Positions 10,388 to 42,567 of a stretch of 64,000 nucleotides of DNA are shown piece by piece (the stretch's first letter is position 1; each line of letters opens with the position of its first letter). The DNA comes from Poecilobothrus nobilitatus. Lineage: Eukaryota; Arthropoda; Insecta; Diptera; Dolichopodidae. The stretch is taken from assembly GCA_947095535.1 (NCBI GenBank), contig OX352772.1:114287253-114351252 (forward strand). The letters are read 5' to 3'. The notes under the pieces were generated by a model, which searched no databases, was not told the DNA's origin, and was given only the letters and a program-made list of their open reading frames with translations. The position numbers and the translations under genes are program-made.

Positions 10388-11471
10388 GAAAACAAGAAGA
10401 AGATGAATTTTTTTGAATCTGATGAATCTCAATTTTGTCATAATCGTCAATTTTATTTCAAGTTGACAAATTTCGAGTTGCGTCCAAAATACGACGCAAT
10501 GCAAAATTATGGTGTTAAAATTTTTAGCGACACAAGTTGAAACAACGCAACTCGAGGCTCTAGTGTACTTGAATGTTTAATGTAGTAATTATTAATTTCT
10601 AAGTTTTTTAACAATTGGTGAATGAAGTTGATATGAATCTTTTTCGATAATTATTATTGGGGGTACTTTTTTTTTCCTTCCTACCTCCACTTGAGAGTTA
10701 TTTTCGCCATCCTTTTCTCTAAATCACTTAGAGGTTGAAAAAAGTTTGACTTATTATTAGTAATCTGGTTTTCTAACGACATTTTGACATTTTTCGATTT
10801 TTTACTTTTATTTTCATCGTTAAACGGATCGTCCAGAGTTCGTTTTTTAATTCTAACATTATTTTCGATTGCGTTTTCAGTATTCATGTGTTGTTTTTTC
10901 AATAAAAAACTGTTAAATAAAAATTAATTTGTTGAAATTCAAGTGCTAAAAACACCTCTCTTTGGTTGAGTTCATGTTTGCAGATCTTATGAAGTTCTAC
11001 AAATGCAGAGCGTTTTTGAGGCAACACTGCAAAAGTTTGCGGTTTTTATTTTAAGAACTTTAGAAGATCTGCTATCATATTTGCAGAATGAAAATTTATG
11101 CTGTCGATAATCAAAAAATAATATAACCCAAAAATAACTTTTGATTTTTTTTGAAAACTGTGTAACAGTATATTAATTAATATAAAATTTGGCTGGTTTA
11201 TATTTATTTCAATTCTTTTTTTTTTTAAATGTCTAAATACAAATTTTTAAATACAATAAAGTGCAGTAAACTGTTTTTAAAGGTAGGGATGCTTTTTTCA
11301 GTTTTTTGATTTTCTGTTGCAACGCCACTGACTGAATAAGAATTATGTTTTAAGATCTGTAAACATGAACTCAAGTAGATAGAATCTGGCGATTCCAGCA
11401 CAGTTTTGACAGCTGTCATTTATTTTGACAGCTATAAAAAAAGTAGTTATAATTTATGCCTATAGAGGTTT
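10388..11471. repeat. Composite repeat, copy B, left part
   Basis: Near-identical to 2786-3869. It ends at the left edge of the Polinton (about 11471) and resumes on the other side at 42326, which shows that the Polinton sits inside this repeat. Confidence 0.8.
10681..10887 (-). pseudogene. LINE ORF1 N-terminal portion (copy B)
   Basis: Parallel of 2961-3285 without the 2-base deletion: from ATG 10887 about 68 codons stay open, with a basic Lys/Arg-rich start and the 'FFQPLSDLEKRMAKITLKW' box, before a TAG at 10681. Past that stop the same frame continues with 'PPIIIIEKDSYQLH' (about 10620-10665), as in intact LINE ORF1 proteins, until it meets the MITE-like sequence at about 10560. Confidence 0.5.
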
Positions 11472-11477
11472 CGCGTT

Positions 11478-12420
11478 AGTGGCGGTTAATTTTGAAATTT
11501 AAAAAAATTTGAATTTAAATTAGTGGCGGTTAATTTTGAAATTTAAAAAAATTTGAATTTAAATTCGCGTTAGTGGCTGTTAATTTTGAATTTAAAAAAA
11601 TGTCAGTGTGGGGTATAATGGAATTGAATTTTAGTTTTGAAATGAATGCAGGTTTTTTTTGTTGCGGGTAGAGTTTTGTTGGCTAGAGTCTGGGTGCTAG
11701 AGGTTGGGTGGCTGAGGGTTGGGTGCTTAGGGACTAGGGGTCTGGGGGCCTGTAGCTGGTGGGGGGCTAGGTTCTGAGATATTGTCTAGATTGGAAACTG
11801 AGAGAAGTTAGGTTTGCCGATTCTAGTACAGTTGGGAGTATTATGAGATTGAATTTTTGTTTATGAAATGAGTTTACACACATAATAATAATTTTGTAAT
11901 AATAAAATATAATTTTTGCTTATTATTGAAAATGAAATTGTTGGGAATTGAGTAGCTTATAGTTGGTAGGTGTATTATTGTGGTTTCTTTTGTGATAAGA
12001 ATATAAAATTTAAATTCAAATTTCTTCTTATTAAAATAATATGTTATAGTGGTTTTCAAATATAAAATTAGATAAGAAAATTTAATAAAATTTAAATTCA
12101 AATTTTTTCTTAGTAAAATATGTTATAGTGGTTTTCAAACATAAAATTAGATAAGAAAATTTAATAAAATTTAAATTCAAATTTTTTCTTAGTAAAATAT
12201 GTTATAGTGGTTTTCAAATATAAAATTAGATAAGAAAATTTTGATTTGAAGAATAAAAGAAAAAGTCTAATTTGTAAAAAATTACGTCAGGGGATTCCGT
12301 AAACGTTTGGCTGATAAAAGTTTAATGAAATAAAAAGTTCATAGATTCATATAGAAAGTGAGTAAAGTAAAAAAAAAATTTAAATTATGAAATATGTTTG
12401 CATTTAAAACTTTTGATAAC
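11478..12420 (+). repeat. Polinton left terminal inverted repeat
   Basis: Matches the reverse complement of about 41385-42325. It opens with two to three copies of a 44-50-bp unit starting AGTGGCGGTTAATTTTG (11478, 11522 and a variant at 11572), then a G-rich stretch at 11640-11790 with GGTTGGGTG-type repeats, then the 79-bp subterminal repeats. The left copy has about 17 extra bases near 11750-11770 compared with the right. Confidence 0.88.
12003..12240. repeat. 79-bp subterminal tandem repeat, three copies, in left TIR
   Basis: The string GTTATAGTGGTTTTCAAA recurs at 12043, 12122 and 12201, a 79-bp period. The right TIR has the same array at about 41575-41810 with spacings of 87 and 79 because one unit carries an 8-bp insertion. 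Confidence 0.85.
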
Positions 12421-22778: not shown

Positions 22779-23228
22779 ATCATTCATATAATCAAACATT
22801 CAAAATCACATACAATTTAATAGCACACTTATAAAACTATCAAATTCGTTTTTTTTCCTATACAACTCATACACAAAAATTCTAAATTTATAACACACTT
22901 AAAAAAAAAATAATATCATATTAACAATTTCTCACCATTACGTTCCTAGTTAGTTGAATGCGCAGTTCCAGATAGTGAGTAAGGGGCACTATATCCTCTA
23001 TCTTCGGTGTCAGCGATCGTTCCGGTATAGACGTTGTCGTTTCAAGGATGATAACAATTTCAAAACAACCTAAAAACCTAAAAACCAAATGGCAGAATAA
23101 GTTTTTTTGTTTATCATATAAAAGTTGTATATAATTTTATTAAAATTTTGTTTTTTATTTTAGTTTAAAGAGAAACCTGAATTGATTTTAGATTTAGATA
23201 TTCCTACGTAATATCAAGGGAGGGAGAA
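22779..23228 (+). other. BEL 3' untranslated region with polypurine tract
   Basis: 450 bp with no ORF. It ends in AAGGGAGGGAGAA (about 23215-23228) directly before the 3' LTR, the polypurine tract that primes plus-strand DNA synthesis. Confidence 0.7.
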
Positions 23229-24050: not shown

Positions 24051-24055
24051 ATTAC

Positions 24056-24954
24056 AGTTTAGACAAACATGTTGGCTTAAAAGCTATATTGATTTAAATA
24101 ATTCACATAGAATAAGAGCTGTAACACAATTTGCTAAAGATTTTTTTAAGCTATTAAATAATGCTGTTTTCGGGAAAACTATTGAGAATATTGATAAAAG
24201 AAAAGATGTTAAAATAGTGACAAGTTGGGAAAGTCGGGGAAGACATTTAGGTGCTAGAGCTTTGATTGCTAAAGCAAATTTCAATAGTATAGCCCATTTT
24301 ACAGAAAATATGATTGCTGTTCAATTGGACAGAGTAAAAACGTTTTATAATAAACCTATATACGTCGGATTTTCAGTATTAGATGTTTCAAAATGGAAAA
24401 TATATAACTTCTTATATAATTATATGAAACCAAAATATGGAGATAATGTTGAGCTAAATTATATGGATACAGATTCTTTTGTATTAACAATTGAAACAGA
24501 TGATTTTTATAAAGATATTATACCTGATATAGATCTAAATTATGATACCTCTGATTATAATGTAAATAATATTTACGGTATACCCTTGAAAAATAAAAAG
24601 GTTCTCGGTATGATGAAGGATGAATGTAGTGGCAGTATAATAAGAGAATTTATAGGTTTAAGATCCAAAATGTATTCTATAGATATTATTAATAAAAATG
24701 AAATAAAAAAAGCAAAAGGTGTTAAGAAATATGTAGTTAAAAATCTAACTTTATCAAATTATAGAGATTGTTTATATAAAAGGAAAATATATGTAAATAA
24801 AATGTATATATTTAGAAGTAAGTTGCATACTTTATACACACAATGTTTAAATAAAGTATCTTTAAGCTATTTTGATGATAAGAGATTTGTACATTCTAAT
24901 GGTGTCAATACATTACCTTGGAATCATTATTCAATTGGTACAGAATTATTGTAA
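24056..24954 (+). pseudogene. polB: Polinton DNA polymerase B, 3' part
   Basis: Continues polB after the BEL insertion in the same codon phase (codon split c|ag at the junction). Contains palm motif B 'KLLNNAVFGKTIEN' (about 24148-24189), 'YNKPIYVGFSVLDVSKW' (24350s) and catalytic motif C 'YMDTDSF' (about 24460-24480), then a thumb region ending at TAA 24952. No lesion in this part. It has no start of its own: an apparent start at GTG 24217 is internal. The adjacent downstream repeats begin at the stop codon. Confidence 0.92.
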
Positions 24955-26366: not shown

Positions 26367-26836
26367 TTACAATAGTGATTTTAATAAATAAACATTTTCA
26401 AAAGCGCACATACCAACATGATTGAATGAGCATCTTTGAGCAGGGGTATTTTCTTGCCTTTTTAAAAATTTTAGGCTTGTGTAATCTTGTCTGTTTAAAT
26501 CTACAACATTATTATAATGTTTCAAAATGTTTTGAATCCAAATTCTCTTTTCATCACCCTTTACGTAAATGCAAGTATTGGTATTTATAAACAATTTAAA
26601 AAATTCATCACATCACAAAAACTTGTTTTACCATCAGACCATTTAAATCCATGGTGATTTTTTGTTAACCATTTATTGATATATTTTGATTGTGACTCAA
26701 GTACGTGATAACTGTATGGAGGTTTAATTATGAAATGTTGAATTTCATTACTTGAAGTTAATATTGCAATTTCTTTTAGAATAAATTTGTTACTATTATC
26801 TCGGAAGCCTTGAATATCAAGTATTACATATTCCAT
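26367..26836 (-). pseudogene. DEDD-exonuclease-like Polinton protein, frameshifted
   Basis: ATG 26836. The start 'MEYVILDIQGF' followed by 'KEIAIL' about ten residues on resembles the first strand pair of an RNase H-like DEDD 3'-5' exonuclease fold. Then 'FIIKPPYSY', 'NHHGFKWSDG', and after a 1-base shift near 26590 'TCIYVKGDEKRIWIQNIL' and 'CSFNHVGMCAFENV'. Proteins with this pattern are common companions of the capsid genes in arthropod Polintons. The first acidic pair is D-x-Q rather than D-x-E, so catalysis is doubtful even in an unbroken copy. About 155 codons in total. Confidence 0.55.
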
Positions 26837-26986
26837 TGCTTAGATGTCTATAAAACAAGTAAATTAAAAATGTTACTCCAAAACAGAGTCGTATATAAAA
26901 TGTATAAAACGATTTTAAATGATTGATTTTGTCTATTCAGTGATTGTTGTTGTAATTTCATTAGAAAAGCTCATTGATTTGTAATT

Positions 26987-28189
26987 TTAATTTATTTTAT
27001 TAACATCCCCGCTCAAAGGTTGAAATTCAACTAGTCGATCGCGTAACAAAAGACAGTAGGCTGTGGTACTTGCTGGAATGCTACTTGCAGTTTTAAGCTG
27101 TATTTTAACATCAATTGACCCCGTTTTTAAATTTTCATTTTGATAACGAGTGTCTATTACGAAAATTGTACTACTTTTCTTAAACTCTTCCCATGTTAAT
27201 AAAGGTTCAGGTATAGAATAATTATAATAATTGCAACGAAAGTTAATGTATGCCTCGTAAGCTATTCCATAACGATGTCTTTCAAAATTTAAATTCATAT
27301 CTTCATATGGATAAGCTTCTGAATTTAAGAAAACTTTTAAATCTTCTACATCCAAATGATCAAATTTCGATGGATCTTCTTTAAGTTGATTTAACTTATT
27401 TGTTTGTAGAGCGAAAATAATGAAACGCGGCTTTTCAAGTTGAGTTGTAGTTTTAACGTTCCAAATATGATGGTTAGTATTTGACGGTAATGTTGGATAT
27501 TCATATAAAGCCTAATTTCTAAAAGCTAATATAATTTTAGCATTATTATCAATATTCTTGTACAGGTTTAATTTGAAGGAATCAGCTAAATTGATATGTT
27601 GTACTCGCCATTGCACTTTAAGTAATTGCATTTTCGGTTTTTCATTAATATCAGAGCAAAGTAAAGAGTTATCATCAGATCTTGAACGTATCAAAATTAA
27701 TTCATGTTTTGCATTCGGTATAATGTTTTTATGATCTTCAGCAAATCCCAAGAGTCTTTTCAATGGAACACAATAGTTAAAAAATTGTGTTTTTGAATCA
27801 ATTGTTGCTTTGGGAGACCAACATGCATTCATAAGAGCTTGACTCTCATTTTCATTTAGCGAAATAAAATTTTTTAAACATGTTGTTATACCAACATTTC
27901 GACAATGATCAATTTCCTTCCCATTTAATTCATAGCGTACTTCTTCGAATAGAAATGCCATTGCGTTATTAATTAAATTTGTTTTTGTTGCAAGACTTCC
28001 ATCTTGTTTTGAAATAAAGCCTTCAATATAAAGAATACTGGTAGACGGTAAGATATTTAGATTTTGATTTTGTATTTGTATGCGAATAATATCGCTTTTA
28101 TTAAATGAATCTGTGAATGCTGAATATGTGCGCCAATGAGCACTTGTTATACTTTCATCAATGACAGGGCTATGAAATAAATTATCCAT
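26987..28189 (-). pseudogene. MCP: Polinton major capsid protein (double jelly-roll), one nonsense stop
   Basis: ATG 28189; the frame runs to TAA at 26987 with a single TAG at 27512-27514, so about 400 codons. N-terminal block: 'SAHWRTYSAFTDSFNKSDII' (residues ~16-35), 'SILYIEGFI' and 'NNAMAFLFEEVRYELNGKEI', which ends the first jelly-roll; then 'VPLKRLLGFAEDHKNIIPN' and 'KHELILIRSRSDDNSLL'. C-terminal block after the stop: 'VEDLKVFLNSEAYPYEDMNL' and 'IYEAY-like' strands. This is the capsomer protein identified in Polintons by structural modelling, forming pseudo-hexameric capsomers. It follows the small ORF and penton gene on the same strand. Confidence 0.85.
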
Positions 28190-28192
28190 TTT

Positions 28193-28403: not shown

Positions 28404-29015
28404 TTATAGTTTCACCTCGAAGATTTGATTGACAGCTACTGGTAAATAGATAAGATTTCGAGGAACTTCAATTATTTTATAGCCGGGGCCAACATGAATT
28501 GAAAATTCATGTAAAATATGTACTCTCTGATCATTAATATATGTTTCTTGAATAATGTTGCATTCAACTCGTATAATATTAATTTTGTTTATATCAACAG
28601 GAAGATCTGAAATATTCCACTTATTTGGTTTTAATCTTCTTTTACTAAAACCTAACAATCCACCAATAGTGTCTTCTCGTTCAAAATCAATCTCTTCATC
28701 GGAAAAAATTTCACAATTTAATGTATTATTGTTAGCTTTTATATAGAGTTTCCGTTTTTCAGTTTTTGTATTTGTAATTTCTAGTTTCTTCTTAACAAAA
28801 TCTTCGATATCTTCAATTTCATAGGAGCCTGTTGGAAGAATGATGCTTTTATCCCCAATAAGAAATCTATTATTTCCTTCATCTACATTCGGTATAGAAT
28901 TGTATGTCTGAAAATCAACTAATGCACAAACATACTCCCCTTCTAAATCTATGGGTGGAAAATATTCTGCTGTTAGTACATAAATTTTACCATTTAAGGT
29001 AAACGTTAAAGACAT
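28404..29015 (-). CDS. mCP: Polinton penton / minor capsid protein (single jelly-roll)
   Basis: ATG 29015 (an upstream in-frame TTG at 29039 is not needed). 203 codons. Pattern of the Polinton minor capsid family: 'LTAEYFPPIDLEGEYVCALV', 'DFQTYNSIPNV', 'LPTGSYEIEDIEDFV', 'IGGLLGFSKRRLKPN', 'KINIIRVECNIIQETYIN' and C-terminal 'GPGYKIIEVPRNLIYLPV'. This protein forms the vertices (pentons) of the predicted icosahedral virion. The frame is intact. The 5' 168 codons are repeated at 33562-34044 because the tandem-duplication breakpoint (28537) falls within this gene. Confidence 0.82.
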   Translation of the reverse strand: MSLTFTLNGKIYVLTAEYFPPIDLEGEYVCALVDFQTYNSIPNVDEGNNRFLIGDKSIILPTGSYEIEDIEDFVKKKLEITNTKTEKRKLYIKANNNTLNCEIFSDEEIDFEREDTIGGLLGFSKRRLKPNKWNISDLPVDINKINIIRVECNIIQETYINDQRVHILHEFSIHVGPGYKIIEVPRNLIYLPVAVNQIFEVKL

Positions 29016-29039
29016 GGTTGCTCTTAACCAATTAAACAA

Positions 29040-29344
29040 TTATTGAAACGTATTATCTTTTATATAACCATTATCATAATTTATTATAAATTAAATTACC
29101 TACACATATATATACAATTTATGATGAAAATTCAATTTTAATTTCAATAACCTTAAATTTAATTTAAAAATCATATGATTTTTATCAAGAAAATAAAAAA
29201 CAAACCTTGAACTTAAAATTTGAATTGCATAATAATAAAAACTATGATTCTACTCAATATCTCTATTGAAAGAAAACAAAAATAGCCTTGAATTTACTTT
29301 TTTGTCACGCTTAAAAAGAAAAAAAAAAAGTGATATATTTCTTA
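29040..29344. other. Penton upstream / protease downstream spacer
   Basis: Very AT-rich, non-coding, duplicated at about 34069-34373. Probably holds the penton promoter and the protease 3' end. A TATATATA stretch at 29106-29115 lies about 90 bases upstream of the penton ATG on the minus strand. Confidence 0.4.
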
Positions 29345-29734
29345 TTAATTTTTTATTTTGTTTTTTTTGTTTTGCTTATAAAAAATAGTATTAGATAAGA
29401 AAGTAAAACATAAATGACCACAATTGTATGTATTAAATTTTTGATATTTATAATAATTATATGAAAGCTTATTTCCTAAATATTTTACAATTTCATTTGG
29501 TGGTTTTAAATTTCCAAAGCTATAAAAATATTTTATATCATTTAAATTCTTATAATATGCTACCCAATGAGTTCCATCTCCGATTGAGTTATCTAAATTG
29601 ACGATTCCACATTCACATTTCCAAGGTTTAGTTTTAGGAAGATCGTCTCTCATAAAAACTCCACGAAAATATTTCAAGTATTTGGTTCCAAAATTATTTA
29701 AATCAATATTGGTTAAAGCCCGTTTGGGTAGCAA
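29345..29734 (-). CDS. PRO: Adenain-like cysteine protease (unit 1)
   Basis: About 129 codons. 'RALTNIDLNNF' and 'FRGVFMRDDLP' at the N-terminus, catalytic His in 'GDGTHWVAYYK' (residues ~53-63), 'FYSFGNLKPP', and catalytic Cys in 'FNTYNCGHLCFTFL' (residues ~100-113). This is the C5/adenain-type maturation protease of Polintons, which processes capsid precursors. There is no ATG at the expected place: the family-like sequence begins at CTA/TTG codons (29734), so either the start was mutated or the gene starts at a non-ATG codon. It overlaps or abuts the PLA2-like gene upstream. The unit 2 copy is nearly identical. Confidence 0.85.
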   Translation of the reverse strand: MLPKRALTNIDLNNFGTKYLKYFRGVFMRDDLPKTKPWKCECGIVNLDNSIGDGTHWVAYYKNLNDIKYFYSFGNLKPPNEIVKYLGNKLSYNYYKYQKFNTYNCGHLCFTFLSNTIFYKQNKKNKIKN

Positions 29735-29736
29735 AC

Positions 29737-30542
29737 TTAGCGGTTTTTTGATGTCAGAAATAATCCAAGTCCCTGTTTATATGGTTTTAAATGTAAACCC
29801 CTTCCTCTTAGAGCAATAGCTTCCATTGTTTTATTATGACGTTCACTTTCATTTAACTGCACCTTAGCATTTTTAGCATCATTAACAGCTTTAGTTATAC
29901 CAGCAGCAACACCTGCAAGAGCTCCGATAGCTGATAAACCTGCGAATGTTGGAATTAATGGTAGAATGCCACAGTTTTAGGAACAAAAATAATGCGTGGT
30001 ATTTTAATTGATTTTCTATTTTTGCTTATATTTCTAGCAGCTTTCAGCGCAATTTTGATAGCGTCATTTTGCTTATTAGGTTTATACCCTTTAATAGCTA
30101 TTCTAGCTTCTTGAATGACTCTTCTTAAGGGTTGCTTTTTCGGTGCTTTCTTTGCTTCCTTCTTGCAACCCATACCAAGTCTAATTTTTGTTTTCATTGC
30201 GTTTGTAACAAGAAATCCGTTTGCTTTTTCACTTAAAGTTGAATCACGCGATTTAACTCTTTGCCAAGCTTTCTCAGCTAATATTTTATCAGCTATATGA
30301 CGATCAGAAATATTACTATGTTTAGAATATGCAATATCGTGTTCACGACATGCATCATCTAATTGGTTTATTCCTTTATCCCGACGTTCTAAACGTTTTT
30401 TAAGTTTTGTTCCTGGTCCACAATAATTATATCCAGGTAGATGTGCTTCAAATGGTAATTTATTAATTATGGAATTTAATACACCACCTTTCTTTTTGAT
30501 TTCTGATTTACAACTGATTGCATTTCTCTTGTAACTGATCAT
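29737..30542 (-). pseudogene. Parvovirus-type phospholipase A2-like virion protein with hydrophobic C-terminal domain (unit 1)
   Basis: ATG 30542. Residues ~30-110 form a PLA2 domain of the parvovirus VP1 type: Ca-binding loop 'HLPGYNYCGPGTKL' and catalytic His-Asp in 'LDDACREHDIAYS'. A basic stretch (KKEAKKAPKKQPLRR) follows. A 1-base shift near 29970 then separates a Gly/Ala-rich hydrophobic segment ('TFAGLSAIGALAG', 'AAGITKAVNDAKNA') and a Lys-rich tail ending at 29737. PLA2-like domains in capsids are thought to breach endosomal membranes during entry; the hydrophobic part resembles adenovirus-type minor core/membrane-lytic peptides. The same shift is in unit 2. It is transcribed divergently from the ATPase, 91 bp away. 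Confidence 0.8.
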
Positions 30543-30633
30543 ATTTAATCTTATATCGGTGACAGTTCAATATGGATTGTTTTGATTAAGACATATAAAT
30601 ATAGTTTTATATGAAATTGATTTAGTTGCTAAA
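30543..30633. promoter_or_regulatory. 91-bp bidirectional promoter region (unit 1)
   Basis: Separates the divergent PLA2-like (minus) and ATPase (plus) genes; the same in unit 2 at 35572-35662. AT-rich with TATAAATATA (about 30594-30604) upstream of the ATPase. Promoter role inferred from position. Confidence 0.5.
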
Positions 30634-31323
30634 ATGAAGTTTATCAAAAAAGGTGAAACAATAAAGATTATGAATTTTGATGAGAAATGTAATATTATTA
30701 AAGAGTATAAGAAACACGGAGAAATACTACCAAACAGTATTCGAGGATTAATTGTTGGACCATCTAATTGTGGTAAAACAAATGTCATGTTAAGCATGTT
30801 ATTAGATCCAAAAGGTCTTAAATTTCAAAATATATACATTTATTCGAAATCATTACACCAGCCGAAGTATCAGTATTTTAAAAAAATTATAAAACCTATT
30901 AAAGGAATGGGATATAATGAATTTTCAAATAATTCAGATGTAGTTAAACCATCAGAATCCCAGCCTAATTCAATATTCATATTTGATGATGTTGCATGTG
31001 ATAAACAAGATAAAGTGAGGGAATATTTTTGTATGGGACGGCATCAAAACGTCGAGAGTTTCTATTTATGTCAATCATATACTCGAATTCCTAAACATTT
31101 AATAAGAGATAATGCAAATTTTATAATTTTATTTAAGCAAGGTGATTTAAATTTAAAGCATATCTATAATGATCATGTTAATGCAGATATGTCCTTTAAG
31201 CAATTTAAAGATATATGCACACATTGTTGGCGAAATAGCTATGGATTTTTACTTATTGATAAAGATAGAGCTTTAAATAATGGTCGCTATAAAAGAAATT
31301 TTGAAGAATGTGTTCAATTATAA
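30634..31323 (+). CDS. ATP: A32-like FtsK/HerA genome-packaging ATPase (unit 1)
   Basis: ATG 30634, 229 codons, intact. Walker A 'GLIVGPSNCGKTNVML' (residues ~38-53), Walker B 'SIFIFDDVACD' (~112-122), and a sensor region 'FYLCQSYTRIPKHLIRDNAN' (~142-161). This is the ATPase that pumps element DNA into the capsid in Polintons and related viruses. The final residues 'YKRNFEE' fit the family ending. Differs from the unit 2 copy by G versus D at residue ~170. Confidence 0.9.
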   Translation: MKFIKKGETIKIMNFDEKCNIIKEYKKHGEILPNSIRGLIVGPSNCGKTNVMLSMLLDPKGLKFQNIYIYSKSLHQPKYQYFKKIIKPIKGMGYNEFSNNSDVVKPSESQPNSIFIFDDVACDKQDKVREYFCMGRHQNVESFYLCQSYTRIPKHLIRDNANFIILFKQGDLNLKHIYNDHVNADMSFKQFKDICTHCWRNSYGFLLIDKDRALNNGRYKRNFEECVQL

Positions 31324-31470
31324 ACATATATAATATACCGTTCACAACAACAACAGATCAGATCAACAACAGCAGCATATCAGATCAGGAACAACAACAG
31401 ATCAGATCAGACCAGTTTCGATTCAATACAGATCAGGTCAGATCAGTTGCAGTTCAATAGCAGTTCAATC
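31324..31470 (+). repeat. CAACA/CAGATCAGATC-rich leader (unit 1)
   Basis: Spacer packed with CAGATCAGATCA and CAACAACAG repeats (about 31342-31445), repeated in unit 2 at 36353-36499. It precedes the ATG of the next gene, so it would form its 5' leader; CAA-rich unstructured leaders can favour translation initiation. Function inferred only. Confidence 0.6.
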
Positions 31471-32415
31471 ATGAATAAAACCTTTAATGAAAAAGTCTTA
31501 AAAGACATAATTAAAACGAGAAAAAATTTGCAAAGGAAATATAAAACATTAAAAACTGGAAAAATAGCAGAGGAGCAATATTTGGAGGAAACATTTAAGC
31601 CAATTGTAGAGCCAATTAAAAAATTAACTAATATTGTGAAAAAGCAGGAAGTGAAACCGGAAGATGAATCCAAAACTACTGATAATGATAAAATTAGTAT
31701 AACATCATTCATGCAAAAAACGGAAACACCAAAGAAAAAGAAATCAGATTTTGAAAGTTTTAAGACATCAACAACTAACACTACTACATTTTCAACTTCT
31801 AAATTGACTGCCGATTCATCATCATCATCATCATCACCTTTATACAGCTATAATAAATCAGAAATTGATAAGAGTTATGGACCATATCTTGACCTAAAAT
31901 CGAACATAAGAAAATTAGGTAATTCAACGTTTAGTATTAATGAAAATAATCATAACATAATTATTAATGGTGAGACCTTTGAGGGAACTGAAGGTTTGCA
32001 TAACCTTATATTTAAAAAGAAACCAGTGAATTATACTGAAAATGATTTAAAACAGTATCAAAGGATTTTGGAAAAAACTAATGCTCATAGGAGAAATTAT
32101 GATTCATTGGAACAAATTAAAGGAAATAAGGGTTATAAATATCAAAATATTATAAAACACCTGTATAAATATTAATATAATACGAGAACTAAAAAAGGAA
32201 ATTCTTATTCTAATAAAAATTTATTAGCATTGCCACACTCTTCTAATATGTTATATTCAAACCGCCCGATTCAATATACTTATTGGGATGACCCTAATGA
32301 ATTAGTTGATAGATTGGAGCTTTTGATTGCATCAGAAATGTCTGGTAACAATAATCATCATAATGAAATCAATTCCATTATTGAAGAACTCAGAGAAGCT
32401 AATATAATTGAGTAA
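31471..32415 (+). pseudogene. Conserved Polinton protein of unknown function (unit 1, nonsense stop)
   Basis: ATG 31471; the frame runs to TAA 32413 but has a TAA at 32173 where unit 2 has GAA. N-terminal coiled-coil/basic part ('KTRKNLQRKYKTLKTGKIAE'), Ser-rich linker, then the conserved core: 'YGPYLDLKSNIRKLGNSTFS', 'IIINGETFEGTEGLHNLIFK' and 'YSNRPIQYTYWDDPNELVDR' with 'LELLIASEMSGN' near the C-terminus. Proteins with this organisation recur in arthropod Polintons next to the capsid genes and are presumed structural or assembly factors. The matching unit 2 gene (36500-37444) is full length. Confidence 0.7.
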
Positions 32416-32439
32416 TAAATATTTTAAAGTAACACTTAC

Positions 32440-32937
32440 ATGATGACAATTGACAAATTTGGTCATACTCGAGCTCAACCATATAAAAATAAACCGTTAA
32501 ACAGCCATATAATAAGTTTTCCTTTAACTTCAGAAGGAAATTATGATCTTCAAAATAAGCAATTCGCAAATGTTAGAACACCCATTAATCCAACAGATGT
32601 TGTAACAAAAAGTTATATTGATAATCAATTCGATATTCATGATGAAAGTATAACAAATCTTTTTATAGATTTTCAAAGAGAAAATGCTGACTGGGTAAAT
32701 ACACAACTTTCAGATGCAAATGAAACCATAAAACAATATACTGAAAATGAAATTAGCAAATTAGATGATAAATTAAAAACTTTTATTGAAGAAAAAATTG
32801 AAAGACATAATTCGTTTATCTGGAGCAGCATGGAAAAGGAAATTAAAAATGCTATGCATTTCGTAGATACGAATGCTGCAGAAATTCTTAAAAACTTTGA
32901 ACTTCGAATAAAACTTTTGGAAACAAATAGTAAATAA
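32440..32937 (+). CDS. Fibre-like coiled-coil protein (unit 1)
   Basis: ATG 32440, 165 codons, intact. Residues ~28-65 read 'FPLTSEGNYDLQNKQFANVR' followed by 'NPTDVVTKSYIDNQF', a segment like the N-terminal anchoring motif found in many phage and virus tail fibres (N-V-x-x-P-x-x-P-x-D-V-x-T-K-x-Y). The remainder, from about residue 65, is heptad-rich and predicted coiled coil, suggesting a trimeric stalk. A host-attachment or vertex-fibre role is inferred from this architecture; no head domain is visible. It follows the conserved protein by 24 bases and is duplicated at 37469-37966. Confidence 0.55.
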   Translation: MMTIDKFGHTRAQPYKNKPLNSHIISFPLTSEGNYDLQNKQFANVRTPINPTDVVTKSYIDNQFDIHDESITNLFIDFQRENADWVNTQLSDANETIKQYTENEISKLDDKLKTFIEEKIERHNSFIWSSMEKEIKNAMHFVDTNAAEILKNFELRIKLLETNSK

Positions 32938-32979
32938 ATTTGTAACAATCAGTCTGTACTAAAGATTTAGGCATTAAAC

Positions 32980-33270
32980 ATGGATATATCACGAATCGGA
33001 TATAAATTGAATAATTTTCTAAATATATATGAAGATATTCTATTAGAAGAACATTATACTGAATTAAAAGATCATTTTAATTTTTTGGTGCAGTTCAAAA
33101 ATTCAGTGCAGTTGGAAACAAGAAATCATGGTATTCATTATACTATATGCCCATATGCGTCAGATTCATCTGATTCATACCCAGATACATGTCCATGTAT
33201 GTCAGCTGAACGAATAATGATAAGAATTGTGAAATTAATGAAATTATATGAGAGAATTAAAAATAAATAA
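32980..33270 (+). CDS. 96-aa protein, unknown function (unit 1)
   Basis: ATG 32980 to TAA 33268. Helical, with a central Cys-containing stretch ('HYTICPYASDSSDSYPDTCP', 'CMSAERIM') that has three cysteines close together, possibly metal-binding or disulphide-linked. No family recognised. It lies between the fibre-like and PP1-docking genes on the same strand; identical in unit 2 apart from a silent change. Confidence 0.5.
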   Translation: MDISRIGYKLNNFLNIYEDILLEEHYTELKDHFNFLVQFKNSVQLETRNHGIHYTICPYASDSSDSYPDTCPCMSAERIMIRIVKLMKLYERIKNK

Positions 33271-33344
33271 AACTATTTAAATTAAAAAAAAATATAAATA
33301 AGCATTATAATTATTGTTTTATATTTAAAATTAGTCAGAGTGAG

Positions 33345-33584
33345 GTGGTTGATTTATTTGAATGGCTTAACATTTTGGATTCCTCTGAAGAGAGTGATGT
33401 AGAGAAGGAGGAGGAGGAAGTGAAAGACGATGGCCAAAAGCTGATGAAAAGAGTTCGTTTTGATTTAAAACCTCAAATCCATATATTGTACACATGGAAC
33501 TCTGCGCATAAATTAGCTCGACAAAAATATTGGGAGATTATAGCTCTAGATCGAGTAAGATTTATATATATGTTTCTTGAATAA
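33345..33584 (+). pseudogene. PP1-docking GADD34/PPP1R15-like protein, truncated by the duplication (unit 1)
   Basis: Same gene as 38374-38724 up to residue 73, then the duplication breakpoint replaces its C-terminus with six codons of antisense penton sequence and a stop. It keeps the RVRF motif and the W-E...LDR-x-RF start of the second motif but lacks the following 40 residues. No ATG at the first open codon (GTG 33345); the first in-frame ATG is at 33444, directly before the RVRF motif. Confidence 0.6.
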
Positions 33585-34044
33585 TGTTGCATTCAACTCG
33601 TATAATATTAATTTTGTTTATATCAACAGGAAGATCTGAAATATTCCACTTATTTGGTTTTAATCTTCTTTTACTAAAACCTAACAATCCACCAATAGTG
33701 TCTTCTCGTTCAAAATCAATCTCTTCATCGGAAAAAATTTCACAATTTAATGTATTATTGTTAGCTTTTATATAGAGTTTCCGTTTTTCAGTTTTTGTAT
33801 TTGTAATTTCTAGTTTCTTCTTAACAAAATCTTCGATATCTTCAATTTCATAGGAGCCTGTTGGAAGAATGATGCTTTTATCCCCAATAAGAAATCTATT
33901 ATTTCCTTCATCTACATTCGGTATAGAATTGTATGTCTGAAAATCAACTAATGCACAAACATACTCCCCTTCTAAATCTATGGGTGGAAAATATTCTGCT
34001 GTTAGTACATAAATTTTACCATTTAAGGTAAACGTTAAAGACAT
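33562..34044 (-). pseudogene. mCP: Penton / minor capsid protein, 3'-truncated (unit 2)
   Basis: Starts at ATG 34044 and matches the intact penton gene (28404-29015) until the duplication junction at 33566, losing about the last 40 residues including the 'GPGYKI...LIYLPV' strand. Probably cannot form a vertex capsomer. Confidence 0.85.
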
Positions 34045-34373
34045 GGTTGCTCTTAACCAATTAAACAATTATTGAAACGTATTATCTTTTATATAACCAT
34101 TATCATAATTTATTATAAATTAAATTACCTACACATATATATACAATTTATGATGAAAATTCAATTTTAATTTCAATAACCTTAAATTTCATTTAAAAAT
34201 CATATGATTTTTATCAAGAAAATAAAAAACAAACCTTGAACTTAAAATTTGAATTGCATAATAATAAAAACTATGATTCTACTCAATATCTCTATTGAAA
34301 GAAAACAAAAATAGCCTTGAATTTACTTTTTTGTCACGCTTAAAAAGAAAAAAAAAAAGTGATATATTTCTTA

Positions 34374-34763
34374 TTAATTTTTTATTTTGTTTTTTTTGTT
34401 TTGCTTATAAAAAATAGTACTAGATAAGAAAGTAAAACATAAATGACCACAATTGTATGTATTAAATTTTTGATATTTATAATAATTATATGAAAGCTTA
34501 TTTCCTAAATATTTTACAATTTCATTTGGTGGTTTTAAATTTCCAAAGCTATAAAAATATTTTATATCATTTAAATTCTTATAATATGCTACCCAATGAG
34601 TTCCATCTCCGATTGAGTTATCTAAATTGACGATTCCACATTCACATTTCCAAGGTTTAGTTTTAGGAAGATCGTCTCTCATTAAAACTCCACGAAAATA
34701 TTTCAAGTATTTGGTTCCAAAATTATTTAAATCAATATTGGTTAAAGCCCGTTTGGGTAGCAA
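34374..34763 (-). CDS. PRO: Adenain-like cysteine protease (unit 2)
   Basis: Copy of 29345-29734 with F-to-L and N-to-S type changes ('FRGVLMRDD', 'FLSSTIFY'). Catalytic His ('GTHWVAYY') and Cys ('NCGHLC') are retained. As in unit 1, no ATG is present at the expected start (TTG 34763), so the missing start codon predates the duplication or is genuine. Confidence 0.85.
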   Translation of the reverse strand: MLPKRALTNIDLNNFGTKYLKYFRGVLMRDDLPKTKPWKCECGIVNLDNSIGDGTHWVAYYKNLNDIKYFYSFGNLKPPNEIVKYLGNKLSYNYYKYQKFNTYNCGHLCFTFLSSTIFYKQNKKNKIKN

Positions 34764-34765
34764 AC

Positions 34766-35571
34766 TTAGCGGTTTTTTGATTTCAGAAATAATCCAAGTC
34801 CCTGTTTATATGGTTTTAAATATAAACCCCTTCCTCTTAGAGCAATAGCTTCCATTGTTTTATTATGACGTTCACTTTCATTTAACTGCACCTTAGCATT
34901 TTTAGCATCATTAACAGCTTTAGTTATACCAGCAGCACCACCTGCAAGAGCTCCGATAGCTGACAAACCTGCGAATGTTGGAATTAATGGTAGAATGCCA
35001 CAGTTTTAGGAACAAAAATAATGCGTGGTATTTTAATTGATTTTCTATTTTTGCTTATATTTCTAGCAGCTTTCAGCGCAATTTTGATAGCGTCATTTTG
35101 CTTATTAGGTTTATACCCTTTAATAGCTATTCTAGCTTCTTGAATGACTCTTCTTAAGGGTTGCTTTTTCGGTGCTTTCTTTGCTTCCTTCTTGCAACCC
35201 ATACCAAGTCTAATTTTTGTTTTCATTGCGTTTGTAACAAGAAATCCGTTTGCTTTTTCACTTAAAGTTGAATCACGCGATTTAACTCTTTGCCAAGCTT
35301 TCTCAGCTAATATTTTATCAGCTATATGACGATCAGAAATATTACTATGTTTAGAATATGCAATATCGTGTTCACGACATGCATCATCTAATTGGTTTAT
35401 TCCTTTATCCCGACGTTCTAGACGTTTTTTAAGTTTTGTTCCTGGTCCACAATAATTATATCCAGGTAGATGTGCTTCAAATGGTAATTTATTAATTATG
35501 GAATTTAATACACCACCTTTCTTTTTGATTTCTGATTTACAACTGATTGCATTTCTCTTGTAACTGATCAT
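34766..35571 (-). pseudogene. PLA2-like virion protein with hydrophobic C-terminal domain (unit 2)
   Basis: Copy of 29737-30542. It has the same frame break near 34999, so the hydrophobic 'LSAIGALAGGAAGITKAV' part (34766-34966) is in another frame than the PLA2 domain (34984-35571). The Ca loop and His-Asp pair are intact. Residue differences from unit 1 lie mostly in the Gly/Ala segment (GG versus GV). Confidence 0.8.
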
Positions 35572-35662
35572 ATTTAATCTTATATCGGTGACAGTTCAAT
35601 ATGGATTGTTTTGATTAAGACATATAAATATAGTTTTATATGAAATTGATTTAGTTGCTAAA

Positions 35663-36352
35663 ATGAAGTTTATCAAAAAAGGTGAAACAATAAAGATTAT
35701 GAATTTTGATGAGAAATGTAATATTATTAAAGAGTATAAGAAACACGGAGAAATACTACCAAACAGTATTCGAGGATTAATTGTTGGACCATCTAATTGT
35801 GGTAAAACAAATGTCATGTTAAGCATGTTATTAGATCCAAAAGGTCTTAAATTTCAAAATATATACATTTATTCGAAATCATTACACCAGCCGAAGTATC
35901 AGTATTTTAAAAAAATTATAAAACCTATTAAAGGAATGGGATATAATGAATTTTCAAATAATTCAGATGTAGTTAAACCATCAGAATCCCAGCCTAATTC
36001 AATATTCATATTTGATGATGTTGCATGTGATAAACAAGATAAAGTGAGGGAATATTTTTGTATGGGACGGCATCAAAACGTCGAGAGTTTCTATTTATGT
36101 CAATCATATACTCGAATTCCTAAACATTTAATAAGAGATAATGCAAATTTTATAATTTTATTTAAGCAAGATGATTTAAATTTAAAGCATATCTATAATG
36201 ATCATGTTAATGCAGATATGTCCTTTAAGCAATTTAAAGATATATGCACACATTGTTGGCGAAATAGCTATGGATTTTTACTTATTGATAAAGATAGAGC
36301 TTTAAATAATGGTCGCTATAAAAGAAATTTTGAAGAATGTGTTCAATTATAA
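35663..36352 (+). CDS. ATP: A32-like packaging ATPase (unit 2)
   Basis: Copy of 30634-31323; Walker A 'GPSNCGKTN' and Walker B 'IFIFDDVA' intact; differs by Asp in place of Gly in 'FKQDDLNLKH'. The Asp form may be the ancestral one. Confidence 0.9.
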   Translation: MKFIKKGETIKIMNFDEKCNIIKEYKKHGEILPNSIRGLIVGPSNCGKTNVMLSMLLDPKGLKFQNIYIYSKSLHQPKYQYFKKIIKPIKGMGYNEFSNNSDVVKPSESQPNSIFIFDDVACDKQDKVREYFCMGRHQNVESFYLCQSYTRIPKHLIRDNANFIILFKQDDLNLKHIYNDHVNADMSFKQFKDICTHCWRNSYGFLLIDKDRALNNGRYKRNFEECVQL

Positions 36353-36499
36353 ACATATATAATATACCGTTCACAACAACAACAGATCAGATCAATAACA
36401 GCAGCATATCAGATCAGGAACAACAACAGATCAGATCAGACCAGTTTCGATTCAATACAGATCAGGTCAGATCAGTTGCAGTTCAATAGCAGTTCAATC
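36353..36499 (+). repeat. CAACA/CAGATCAGATC-rich leader (unit 2)
   Basis: Same as 31324-31470 with one substitution (CAATAACAG). Precedes the ATG at 36500. Confidence 0.6.
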
Positions 36500-37444
36500 A
36501 TGAATAAAACCTTTAATGAAAAAGTCTTAAAAGACATAATTAAAACGAGAAAAAATTTGCAAAGGAAATATAAAACATTAAAAACTGGAAAAATAGCAGA
36601 GGAGCAATATTTGGAGGAAACATTTAAGCCAATTGTAGAGCCAATTAAAAAATTAACTAATATTGTGAAAAAGCAGGAAGTGAAACCGGAAGATGAATCC
36701 AAAACTACTGATAATGATAAAATTAGTATAACATTATTCATGCAAAAAACGGAAACACCAAAGAAAAAGAAATCAGATTTTGAAAGTTTTAAGACATCAA
36801 CACCTAACACTACTACATTTTCAACTTCTAAATTGACTGCCGATTCATCATCATCATCATCATCACCTTTATACAGCTATAATAAATCAGAAATTGATAA
36901 GAGTTATGGACCATATCTTGACCTAAAATCGAACATAAGAAAATTAGGTAATTCAACGTTTAGTATTAATGAAAATAATCATAACATAATTATTAATGGT
37001 GAGACCTTTGAGGGAACTGAAGGTTTGCATAACCTTATATTTAAAAAGAAACCAGTGAATTATACTGAAAATGATTTAAAACAGTATCAAAGGATTTTGG
37101 AAAAAACTAATGCTCATAGGAGAAATTATGATTCATTGGAACAAATTAAAGGAAATAAGGGTTATAAATATCAAAATATTATAAAACACCTGTATAAATA
37201 TGAATATAATACGAGAACTAAAAAAGGAAATTCTTATTCTAATAAAAATTTATTAGCATTGCCACACTCTTCTAATATGTTATATTCAAACCGCCCGATT
37301 CAATATACTTATTGGGATGACCCTAATGAATTAGTTGATAGATTGGAGCTTTTGATTGCATCAGAAATGTCTGGTAACAATAATCATCATAATGAAATCA
37401 ATTCCATTATTGAAGAACTCAGAGAAGCTAATATAATTGAGTAA
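36500..37444 (+). CDS. Conserved Polinton protein of unknown function (unit 2, full length)
   Basis: ATG 36500 to TAA 37442, 314 codons, intact; the unit 1 equivalent has a nonsense stop. Lys-rich coiled N-terminus, Ser tract (six consecutive TCA codons near 36847-36864), conserved core 'YGPYLDLKSNIRKLGNSTFS' through 'GTEGLHNLIFKKKPVNYT', and C-terminal 'LVDRLELLIASEMSGN' with 'INSIIEELREANII'. Recurrent in arthropod Polintons near the ATPase; role unknown, presumed virion-related. Confidence 0.75.
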   Translation: MNKTFNEKVLKDIIKTRKNLQRKYKTLKTGKIAEEQYLEETFKPIVEPIKKLTNIVKKQEVKPEDESKTTDNDKISITLFMQKTETPKKKKSDFESFKTSTPNTTTFSTSKLTADSSSSSSSPLYSYNKSEIDKSYGPYLDLKSNIRKLGNSTFSINENNHNIIINGETFEGTEGLHNLIFKKKPVNYTENDLKQYQRILEKTNAHRRNYDSLEQIKGNKGYKYQNIIKHLYKYEYNTRTKKGNSYSNKNLLALPHSSNMLYSNRPIQYTYWDDPNELVDRLELLIASEMSGNNNHHNEINSIIEELREANIIE

Positions 37445-37468
37445 TAAATATTTTAAAGTAACACTTAC

Positions 37469-37966
37469 ATGATGACAATTGACAAATTTGGTCATACTCG
37501 AGCTCAACCATATAAAAATAAACCGTTAAACAGCCATATAATAAGTTTTCCTTTAACTTCAGAAGGAAATTATGATCTTCAAAATAAGCAATTCGCAAAT
37601 GTTAGAACACCCATTAATCCAACAGATGTTGTAACAAAAAGTTATATTGATAATCAATTCGATATTCATGATGAAAGTATAACAAATCTTTTTATAGATT
37701 TTCAAAGAGAAAATGCTGACTGGGTAAATACACAACTTTCAGATGCAAATGAAACCATAAAACAATATACTGAAAATGAAATTAGCAAATTAGATGATAA
37801 ATTAAAAACTTTTATTGAAGAAAAAATTGAAAGACATAATTCGTTTATCTGGAGCAGCATGGAAAAGGAAATTAAAAATGCTATGCATTTCGTAGATACG
37901 AATGCTGCAGAAATTCTTAAAAACTTTGAACTTCGAATAAAACTTTTGGAAACAAATAGTAAATAA
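37469..37966 (+). CDS. Fibre-like coiled-coil protein (unit 2)
   Basis: Identical protein to 32440-32937. Anchoring-like 'NVRTPINPTDVVTKSYIDNQ' segment then a long coiled coil. Conservation of both copies gives no hint of selection because the duplication is recent. Confidence 0.55.
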   Translation: MMTIDKFGHTRAQPYKNKPLNSHIISFPLTSEGNYDLQNKQFANVRTPINPTDVVTKSYIDNQFDIHDESITNLFIDFQRENADWVNTQLSDANETIKQYTENEISKLDDKLKTFIEEKIERHNSFIWSSMEKEIKNAMHFVDTNAAEILKNFELRIKLLETNSK

Positions 37967-38008
37967 ATTTGTAACAATCAGTCTGTACTAAAGATTTAGG
38001 CATTAAAC

Positions 38009-38299
38009 ATGGATATATCACGAATCGGATATAAATTGAATAATTTTCTAAATATATATGAAGATATTCTATTAGAAGAACATTATACTGAATTAAAAGA
38101 TCATTTTAATTTTTTGGTGCAGTTCAAAAATTCAGTGCAGTTGGAAACAAGAAATCATGGTATTCATTATACTATATGCCCATATGCGTCAGATTCATCT
38201 GATTCATACCCAGATACATGTCCATGTATGTCGGCTGAACGAATAATGATAAGAATTGTGAAATTAATGAAATTATATGAGAGAATTAAAAATAAATAA
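38009..38299 (+). CDS. 96-aa protein, unknown function (unit 2)
   Basis: Identical protein to 32980-33270; short Cys cluster (C-P-Y...C-P-C) near the C-terminal third and helical ends. It lies about 75 bases before the PP1-docking gene on the same strand. No family recognised. Confidence 0.5.
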   Translation: MDISRIGYKLNNFLNIYEDILLEEHYTELKDHFNFLVQFKNSVQLETRNHGIHYTICPYASDSSDSYPDTCPCMSAERIMIRIVKLMKLYERIKNK

Positions 38300-38373
38300 A
38301 ACTATTTAAATTAAAAAAAAAAATAAATAAGCATTATAATTATTGTTTTATATTTAAAATTAGTCAGAGTGAG

Positions 38374-38724
38374 GTGGTTGATTTATTTGAATGGCTTAAC
38401 ATTTTGGATTCCTCTGAAGAGAGTGATGTAGAGAAGGAGGAGGAGGAAGTGAAAGACGATGGCCAAAAGCTGATGAAAAGAGTTCGTTTTGATTTAAAAC
38501 CTCAAATCCATATATTGTACACATGGAACTCTGCGCATAAATTAGCTCGACAAAAATATTGGGAGATTATAGCTCTAGATCGAGTAAGATTTAATAAAAG
38601 AATTGAAAATACTGATAACCTTATCTCTAAAGTTTTAAATAAAAACCATCGTCAGCATATTTTTAATGACAGATTTTCTAATTACAACCTCATAACAGAA
38701 ATAAAACTAGATCATTCATCATGA
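38374..38724 (+). CDS. Putative PP1-recruiting protein, GADD34/PPP1R15-like
   Basis: 116 open codons from GTG 38374 to TGA 38722; first in-frame ATG at 38473. Residues 12-30 are very acidic (SSEESDVEKEEEEVKDD). An RVRF motif at 36-39 matches the R/K-V-x-F docking site for protein phosphatase 1. About 20 residues later comes 'LARQKYWEIIALDRVRFNKR' (57-76), then 'IENTDNLISK' and 'HRQHIFNDRF'. The same order (acidic stretch, RVxF, then W-E-x(3)-x-D-R-x-RF-x-KRI helix) defines the GADD34/PPP1R15 C-terminal domain and its viral relatives, which bring PP1 to phosphorylated eIF2alpha and reopen translation during stress or antiviral response. Inferred role: host translation control by the element. 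It overlaps the integrase start by four bases (ATGA). If only the ATG form is made, the acidic part is lost. Confidence 0.6.
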   Translation: MVDLFEWLNILDSSEESDVEKEEEEVKDDGQKLMKRVRFDLKPQIHILYTWNSAHKLARQKYWEIIALDRVRFNKRIENTDNLISKVLNKNHRQHIFNDRFSNYNLITEIKLDHSS

Positions 38725-39606
38725 CTAAGAGAGAGGTTGTTGAAGAATTACATAAGCCAGCTCGAAAAAAATTTAAAAGTCGTAGAGTAATTATCAAAGG
38801 TTATGATGATCTCTGGCAAGCAGATTTGGTAGAAATGGGTTTATATGCTAAAGAAAATAAAACATTTCGATTCTTACTAACCGTAATCGATACCTTTTCG
38901 AAATATGCCTGGGCTATTCCAATCAATCAATCAATTTTCACAAAATTTAACAGATATCCAAAAAATCTTCAGACTGATGATGGAAAAGAATTCTTCAACA
39001 TAACTTTTAAAAATTTAATGAGAAATTATAAAATCAATCATTACTCAACTTTTAGCTCATTAAAAGCATCTATTGTAGAGCGCTTTAATCGTACTTTAAA
39101 AGAAAAAATGTGGAAAGAATTCAGCTTTAATGGAAATTACAAATGGATAGGCATAATTGAAAGTTTAGTTCATCAATATAATCACAAAAAACATCGCACA
39201 ATTGGAAGATCTCCATCAGATATAAATGAAAAAAATGCTAATGAGCTGCTGTCAAGTGTTTATAATCATATAAAAATTTCACCACCGGCTAAATTCAAAA
39301 TTGGTGACTCAGTTCGGATAAGCAAGTTTAAACATGTTTTTGAAAAAGGTTATACACCCAATTGGACAACTGAAATATTTAAGATAAGGAAAGTGCAAAT
39401 TACTAATCCCGTAACATATTTGCTAGAAGATTATCAACACAATCCAATAGAAGGAAGCTTTTATGAAGCAGAACTATTAAAAACAAAATTAAGGTATTTA
39501 CTTAATTGAAAAAATATTAAAATATAAGGATGATAAAGCTTTTGTTAAATGGCTTGGGTTTCCTTCAAGTCATAATTCATGGATAAATAAAACAGATTTA
39601 ATTTAA
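38721..39606 (+). pseudogene. INT: Polinton retroviral-type integrase with C-terminal chromodomain-like tail
   Basis: ATG 38721. N-terminal 'LHKPARKKFKSRRVIIKGYD', then the DDE core: D in 'LWQADLVEMG' (residue ~35), D in 'NLQTDDGKEFF' (~90) and E in 'ASIVERFNRTLKEKMW' (~126), with the second and third acidic residues about 35 apart as in retroviral integrases. Next come 'YNHKKHRTIGRSPSDI' and 'FKIGDSVRISKFKHVFEKGY'. A 1-base shift near 39497 moves a chromodomain-like end ('VKWLGFPSSHNSWI', stop 39604) out of frame. A gap of roughly 20 residues seems missing after 'AWAIPINQ', before 'KFNRYPKN'. No HHCC zinc finger is seen at the N-terminus. Confidence 0.88.
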
Positions 39607-41384: not shown

Positions 41385-42325
41385 TTCAAAAGCTTTTTTT
41401 TAAATCCAAACATATTTCATAATTTAATTTTTTTTTTTACTTTACTCACTTTCTATATGAATCTATGAACTTTTTATTTCATTAAACTTTTATCAGCCAA
41501 ACGTTTACAGAATCCCCTGACGTAATTTTTTACAAATTAGACTTTTTCTTTTATTTTTCAAATCAAAATTTTCTTATCTAATTTTATATTTGAAAACCAC
41601 TATAACATATTTTACTAAGAAAAAATTTGAAAATTTGAATTTAAATTTTATTAAATTTTCTTATCTAATTTTATATTTGAAAACCACTATAACATATTTT
41701 ACTAAGAAAAAATTTGAATTTAAATTTTATTAAATTTTCTTATCTAATTTTATATTTGAAAACCACTATAACATATTATTTTAATAAGAAGAAATTTGAA
41801 TTTAAATTTTATATTCTTATCACAAAAGAAACCACAATAATACACCTACCTACTATAAGCTACTCAATTCCCAACAATTTCATTTTCAATAATAAGCAAA
41901 AATTATATTTTATTATGTGTGTAAACTCATTTCATAAACAAAAATTCAATCTCATAATACTCCCAACTGTACTAGAATCGGCAAAGCTAACTTCTCTCAG
42001 TTTCCAATCTAGACAATATCTCAGAACCTAGCCCCCAGACCCCTAGTCCCTAAGCACCCAACCCTCAGCCACCCAACCTCTAGCACCCAGACTCTAGCCA
42101 ACAAAACTCTACCCGCAACAAAAAAAACCTGTATTCATTTCAAAACTAAAATTCAATTCCATTATACCCCACACTGACATTTTTTTTAAATTCAAATTTT
42201 TTTAAATTCAAAATTAACCGCCACTAACGCGAATTTAAATTCAAATTTTTTTAAATTTCAAAATTAACCGCCACTAACGCTAATTTAAATTCAAATTTTT
42301 TTAAATTTCAAAATTAACCGCCACT
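41385..42325 (-). repeat. Polinton right terminal inverted repeat
   Basis: Reverse complement of 11478-12420. Read inward from 42325: two 50-bp AGTGGCGG... units, a third variant, the C-rich strand of the G-rich block (CACCCAACCCTCAGCC at about 42055-42075), and three subterminal repeats at 41575-41810. Ends in CCGCCACT directly against composite-repeat sequence. Confidence 0.88.
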
Positions 42326-42567
42326 ATTTTTCCTCGTTTTTAATACATTTATTAAAAGTAATGATTTTTTTTAATGTGAAGTAAGGATTAATTTAAGATC
42401 AAAATTGAAAAACGTGCGAAACTAAATGAGAAACTAACCAAAACGTGCTAGAAAAAATAGAAAATTTATTCGAATCATATCGTGGAATGACCTGAGGGGG
42501 AAATTAAGCTGAAACTGGCAGAAAATTGTTTAATTTAAGTACCCATACCTATTAATTTAAGTACACA
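42326..42567. repeat. Composite repeat, copy B, middle part
   Basis: Matches 4207-4375 of copy A with an extra ~75 bp at 42447-42510 and a 22-bp tandem duplication at about 42541-42567 (TTAATTTAAGTAC). It ends at the errantivirus-type LTR; the CACA at 42564-42567 is the target duplication. Confidence 0.75.

Follow-up and report, generated by a model that had tools for sequence, protein, structure and literature searches.

The question raised by this locus is whether Polintons, which are virus-like transposons, carry a gene of their own for restoring translation in a stressed host cell. The window, i.e., the whole stretch of 64,000 nucleotides from Poecilobothrus nobilitatus that was analysed, contains a short open reading frame that had been proposed, from the letters alone, to encode a GADD34/PPP1R15-like protein. 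Passages in PMC4394352 and PMC8500838 describe how PPP1R15 cores of approximately 70 residues dock PP1 and together with G-actin direct it to phosphorylated eIF2α, and how such cores have been co-opted by viruses. The features of the window that bear on the question are collected in Table 1.

Table 1. Coordinates of the PPP1R15-like gene, its neighbours and the boundaries of the Polinton in the window.
Feature	Positions	Strand	Remarks
Left terminal inverted repeat of Polinton	11470..12409	.	Inverted-repeat comparison
Major capsid protein, double jelly roll	26987..28192	-	Two pieces split by one in-frame stop
Tandem duplication	28537..38594	.	Two copies of ~5029 bp; 16 differences, including the final base
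Phospholipase A2-like domain gene	29955-30542	-	PF08398, 6.8e-14; second copy 34984-35571
Second PPP1R15-like copy, truncated	33267..33584	+	At tandem-duplication edge, cut after DRVRF
Packaging ATPase	35663..36352	+	Pox_A32 match; second copy 30634-31323
96-aa gene, recurrent upstream neighbour of PPP1R15-like gene	38009..38299	+	
PPP1R15-like gene, open frame	38296..38724	+	DLFEWL motif, acidic stretch, RVxF, Arg-site, W/E, DRxRFxxRI helix
Polinton integrase	38721..39509	+	ATG overlaps PPP1R15-like stop by 4 bases
Right terminal inverted repeat of Polinton	41398..42330	.	Inverted-repeat comparison

When it comes to the reading frame itself, an acidic stretch (residues 15-29), RVRF (36-39), W63-E64, the helix residues L68-D69-R70-V-R72-F73-N-K75-R76-I77 and HRQHIFNDRF were all found at the residues and in the order given in the preliminary description. 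The 116-aa protein proposed there stands only in part. A forward frame of 116 codons does exist at 38374-38724, but its first codon is GTG and its length is a product of the bacterial-start convention used in ORF calling; the open frame is 38296-38724, it has no ATG at its start, and its sole Met sits just before RVxF. The closest related copies fetched (L044 and L045) encode 121 aa from a Met, and that start is absent in the window copy. A plain [RK]VxF is present in 18 of the 188 window ORFs of at least 60 aa and in 4.8% of shuffles, and RVxF by itself means little as a PPP1R15 signature. The full ordered signature, defined by a pattern written after the sequence had been seen, occurs in one of the 188 ORFs and in none of 100,000 shuffles, and a chance occurrence of RVxF is ruled out by this whole ordered pattern. 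The signature observed in the ORF is real.

Profile comparisons point in the same direction. The window ORF matches the Pfam family PF10488 (PP1c_bdg) with an E-value of 2.7e-6 and 27.7 bits (cut-off 26.1), and this is the sole Pfam family found at E<=1. Among all PDB chains it gives four matches at E<=10, namely PPP1R15A (two entries), PPP1R15B and DP71L. An 11-member profile finds seven PDB chains at E<=1; the top six are PPP1R15A/B and DP71L (best E-value 4e-10), while the seventh is the unrelated EntV (E 0.26). All 11 Polinton copies match PF10488 at E<=0.01, and the window ORF is identical to the PPP1R15A fragment at 21 of 55 residues and to the PPP1R15B fragment at 17 of 40. The matches to PF10488, PPP1R15A/B and DP71L thus reach well beyond the four residues of RVxF, and on these sequence profiles we judge the homology to PPP1R15 to be real.

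The location of the gene in a Polinton and its placement next to the integrase gene, both claimed earlier, were borne out. The gene lies inside an element of approximately 11470-42330 that is bounded by terminal inverted repeats, the arms of which differ by 10 mismatches over 914 aligned positions plus 72 gap positions. The integrase gene follows directly downstream with a 4-base overlap, and a packaging ATPase gene and a double jelly-roll capsid gene are found in the same element. The ATG of the integrase was placed as in 11 of 14 aligned relatives, the remaining three having longer N-termini; its rve score of 32.3 is just below the cut-off of 32.6, and all 120 relatives listed carry PF00665. 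The phospholipase A2-like gene is of a type known from parvovirus capsids. Two pieces, 13982-15445 and 24046-24954, are assumed to resemble PolB by their motifs; a PolB match was absent for both in Pfam and PHROGs, and for the latter also in PDB, while the former gave only Endonuclease VII below its Pfam cut-off. Further pieces are presumably the penton and protease genes of the element, and no Pfam family was found for those pieces tried.

The gene is not confined to the window. The host assembly (943.8 Mb, 84 contigs) was searched in four ways, and the match lists are lower bounds that may overlap. The search with PF10488 gave at least 150 matches, all over the cut-off (the best 150 of 1569 first-look candidates), and the same search over 14 control genomes, which is a weak control, gave no match. 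The window ORF likewise gave at least 150 matches (the best 150 of 1957), the first 19 at 95-99% identity, and searches that used a human core or a database protein as query gave at least 150 each. The 43 loci examined (L010-L052) comprise 20 from the PF10488 matches (10 kb each; seven picked as odd-looking, the others spread), 16 from the ORF matches (3 kb each) and seven from the human-core and database-protein searches. Another Polinton gene is present at 42 of these loci, mostly at a spacing specific to the lineage, the exception being L050; at L048, the only other Polinton gene found is the one that precedes the clade-B cores described below. Five of the first eight PF10488 loci coincide with five of the 43, and the other three, L004-L006, are additional loci at which a search of 1.5 kb found no Polinton gene other than this same clade-B upstream gene. 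Carriage by Polintons is argued here from the recurring spacing and not from the mere presence of Polinton genes. The PPP1R15-like genes of this genome form a large family of many copies, split into two or more clades and located at several gene positions.

Members of clade A encode 105-128 aa, with DLFEWL, an acidic stretch and the core, and are mostly found beside the integrase gene. A start Met is present at 12 of the 16 clade-A loci (L030-L045), 11 of these reading through the whole core; five of the 16 are not open from Met to core end, the lack of such a frame being what was counted as decay. The occurrence of homologues beside integrase was looked for within this genome, and the integrase gene was found 0-59 bp downstream on the same strand at 11 of the 16 loci. 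At L039 and L042 it is on the other strand, and it was looked for and not found within the 3-kb loci L035, L036 and L040. The identity of the PPP1R15-like protein to the window copy and that of the integrase gave a Spearman coefficient of 0.6 over nine loci (p 0.088).

Clade B encodes proteins of approximately 74 aa (mostly 72-75) that consist of the bare core, and its genes are divergent from an ATPase gene. One and the same gene is found 28-53 bp upstream on the same strand at 18 of 19 clade-B loci (L010-L029 without L018), as detected with a query taken from L010 itself and with distances given between match edges. The ATPase gene is 635-694 bp away on the other strand at 13 of the 19 and lies elsewhere at L014, L015, L019, L020, L023 and L025. 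In L010 itself, the upstream gene and the core share one open frame on the reverse strand (approximately 4990-5830) that stops inside the core. The window contains a relative of this upstream gene that is 35% identical (26367-26839, reverse strand) and has no core behind it; Pfam gave nothing over the cut-off for the window pieces of this relative. L018 is of another type, with a core containing stops behind the same upstream gene as in clade B and with capsid genes downstream. Four near-identical matches lie within approximately 35 kb at G000:C1:97408564-97443009 (L003-L006) and may form a local array of elements of the L018 type.

The residues by which PPP1R15 makes its contacts are largely retained in these copies. 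According to passages of PMC8500838, Phe592, Arg595, and Arg612 of PPP1R15A touch actin, while Arg591 and Arg594 touch eIF2α, and in PMC4394352 the Arg-site and the Trp are described as required for the response to actin. V37, F39, and R59 of the window protein correspond to V556, F558, and R578 at the PP1 sites (RVxF and Arg-site), and W582, E583, D588, R589, R591, F592, R595, and I596 of human PPP1R15A are also kept. The actin contacts correspond to F73, R76, and R93, where the equivalent of R612 was mapped via R692 of PPP1R15B; all three are invariant in the 11 rows of the Polinton alignment, as are F558, R578, W582, and I596 (human PPP1R15A numbering). The counterparts of V556, E583, D588, R589, and R591 are kept in at least 90% of the rows. 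Breaks are found in single rows, L025 being without the Val of RVxF, L042 having E583 and D588 changed and L017 having R589 changed; apart from these, the relatives beside other Polinton genes retain both RVxF and the W-E...RF helix.

When the window chain was modelled alone in AlphaFold2 (alignment of 14 rows), helices were predicted at residues 4-13, 50-58, 62-88, 90-101, and 104-115, with a block at pLDDT 92-94 over residues 71-100 and a pTM of 0.34. The first helix corresponds to a DLFEWL-DSSEE segment (window residues 3-12) that is conserved in the clade-A rows (loci L030-L045) and absent from the clade-B rows.

Taken as a reading of the sequences, it is likely that Polintons carry a virus-type recruiter of eIF2α phosphatase that would counter translational shut-off. 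The RVxF and Arg-site residues of the Polinton protein would dock PP1, and the helix that follows the Trp would use one face to bind G-actin and the other to bind the folded domain of eIF2α. PP1 would then remove the phosphate from Ser51 of eIF2α, and translation could go on during infection or reactivation. The host stress response might be triggered by the replication of the element or by its capsid genes, and the Polinton protein would then act as the PPP1R15 cores do. C-terminal PPP1R15 fragments of approximately 70 residues suffice in mammalian cells according to PMC4394352, and clade B is little more than a core of this size. The earlier reading as a Polinton-borne PPP1R15-like gene is supported, and it is from the conserved residues that we infer the action on eIF2α.

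The fold might also have been kept while PP1 is steered to another substrate, or the protein might act as a decoy, sequestering PP1 or G-actin. The near-invariance of the residues facing PP1 and actin would fit this, as would the conserved DLFEWL segment added in clade A and the variability of the eIF2α-facing position 594 in that clade, which is Gln in three of four clade-A rows and Lys in L044 and in the window. However, position 594 is variable in other database rows as well, the other eIF2α contact, 591, is Arg in 10 of the 11 rows (R72 in the window; Lys in L043), and the clade-B rows compared keep Arg at both positions. We consider another substrate or a decoy function unlikely.

Whether the gene is kept by selection was addressed by comparing the clade-A copies of this genome, a check that the preliminary description had suggested. 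The median dN/dS is 0.222 (range 0.083-0.845; NG86, nine copies, 36 pairs). These pairs are non-independent owing to shared ancestry, and the most divergent of them approach saturation at synonymous sites. Shifted-frame controls on the same alignments gave 0.96 (+1) and 1.94 (+2). When five of the pairs were bootstrapped, the upper bounds were 0.236-0.438, with 144-200 of 200 resamples usable. The core has a lower ratio (0.21) than the N-terminal part (0.352; 24 usable pairs). Purifying selection between the clade-A lineages is thereby shown. Within clade B, the ratio varies from 0.11 to 2.14 where defined, at a divergence that is too small to judge from.

These values also bear on the notion that the transposon passively picked up a fragment of a host gene and multiplied it as functionless cargo. 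Copies are highly abundant in this genome, with at least 150 matches, broken ones exist (the five clade-A loci and the L018 type), and the scattered clade-B ratios are such as dead copies would give. Such a reading is strained by clade-A ratios of about 0.2 against controls near 1 and 2, and also by the contact residues kept in both clades and the recurrence of gene order and spacing. Passive cargo is therefore regarded as very unlikely, and a selected recruiter as the better account.

The host appears to have a PPP1R15 gene of its own. At L050 (G000:C2:112609960) there is a core exon of 71 aa that starts at the Val of RVxF, matches PF10488 with 42.0 bits and is directly preceded by a T-run and AG resembling a splice acceptor; Polinton genes were sought within 1.5 kb and none were found. 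From these sequence features, L050 resembles an exon of the host's PPP1R15 gene, and a separate exon for the core is given in PMC4394352 as a feature of both PPP1R15 isoform genes. The L050 core shares 57% identity with that of the window and 59% with clade B, and a similar match lies 33 kb away, at C2:112642700. The resemblance of this exon to the window core might be taken to mean that the window gene is simply a host PPP1R15 gene or exon hit by a Polinton insertion. The window gene is, however, located between terminal inverted repeats, is intronless across the host exon boundary and recurs beside Polinton genes, and the host-like exon is a separate one; a host exon with an inserted element is untenable on these grounds, and we give this explanation practically no credence.

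The same boundary bears on the ancestry of the Polinton gene. Since the Polinton copies read through it without an intron, a capture from a spliced host PPP1R15 message is suggested; as with binding, dephosphorylation and benefit to the element, this origin is something we infer. In the tree, clade A is monophyletic (100/99) and clade B groups with the database protein P0121 (84/79). Clade A together with the host exon has a support of 78/90, and the data also allow clade B to be grouped with that exon (p-AU 0.52). Descent of both clades from one ancestor is likewise not rejected, with a p-AU of 0.086 in a first tree and 0.054 in a second, from which P0134, P0135, and P0136 were omitted because of their long or short rows and to which the host exon was added. 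Four database proteins fall inside clade A in the first tree (94/86) and outside it in the second.

A profile search of the protein database gave 16 matches among 8000 scored candidates, 12 of 55-80 aa and the others of 81, 84, 85, and 185 aa, the longest being a frog protein; a search with the window ORF alone gave none. The bare-core proteins of 55-85 aa, many of the 16, may be Polinton genes of other animals, and some of the 16 may be host exons. In IMG/VR, searched with the ORF, the ATPase, the integrase, the integrase alignment and P0131, no relative was confirmed. The integrase alignment found one tubeworm-associated contig among GTDB species genomes (L001, 3.8 kb), which has an integrase and no core, and phage records gave a single match at chance level.

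The window's own copy of the Polinton is decayed, as seen from the missing start ATG of the PPP1R15-like gene, the stop in the capsid gene, a retrotransposon, a duplication and a shortened integrase. The retrotransposon is of the BEL/Pao type and sits between the polymerase-like pieces (stretch 15366-23641); its flanking direct repeats differ by two mismatches over 825 aligned positions plus eight gap positions, and the stretch is young. The edges of the tandem duplication fall inside a gene at 28404-29015 and inside the PPP1R15-like gene. The integrase is missing approximately 11 internal residues and has a shorter C-terminus, with 262 aa compared to approximately 305 in many relatives. Because the start ATG is missing and the element is broken, the PPP1R15-like copy of the window probably makes nothing; open copies exist elsewhere in the same genome.

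To our knowledge, Polintons carry capsid genes and evidence that they behave as viruses against a host response is sparse. A selected recruiter of eIF2α phosphatase would be a gene that is useful where the cell shuts down translation against the element. The question of whether Polintons are viruses then becomes directly testable, by reversal of eIF2α phosphorylation and by production of the protein during replication of the element. More tentatively, and with some doubt on our part, PPP1R15 might serve animal Polintons as a recurrent arms-race module that they gained or relocated repeatedly, to the integrase in clade A and behind a different gene in clade B and in the L018 type, and that is under selection in lineages of several hosts; in the present genome, copies including broken ones would outnumber the host exon by at least 100:1.

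The preliminary description knew of no described Polinton gene of this kind, and among the open-licence papers listed on Polintons, Mavericks, adintoviruses and polintoviruses no earlier account of it was found; term searches of the main texts examined on Mavericks, adintoviruses and double jelly-roll viruses also find no PPP1R15. Vertebrate Mavericks likewise have extra ORFs beside conserved core modules according to the main text of PMC8097293, which names no PPP1R15 or phosphatase. Compared to those accessory genes, the PPP1R15-like gene is often located between genes of the element, at the start of the integrase gene. The animal proteins PPP1R15A/GADD34 and PPP1R15B/CReP have the same order and spacing of RVxF, Arg-site, Trp-Glu, DRxRFxxRI and C-terminal Arg. 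The Polinton gene differs from them in being carried by a mobile element, in lacking the long N-terminal part and the intron before RVxF, and in encoding only approximately 74-128 aa, whereas the animal proteins exceed 600 (PMC4394352). Viral mimics of PPP1R15 are also close; PMC4394352 mentions those of a herpesvirus and an insect granulovirus, and DP71L is another. These mimics likewise represent a pared-down core in a large-DNA virus, while here the core is carried by a Polinton that is integrated and present in many copies of the genome's own sequence, and the clade-A proteins possess a DLFEWL and acidic N-terminus of their own.
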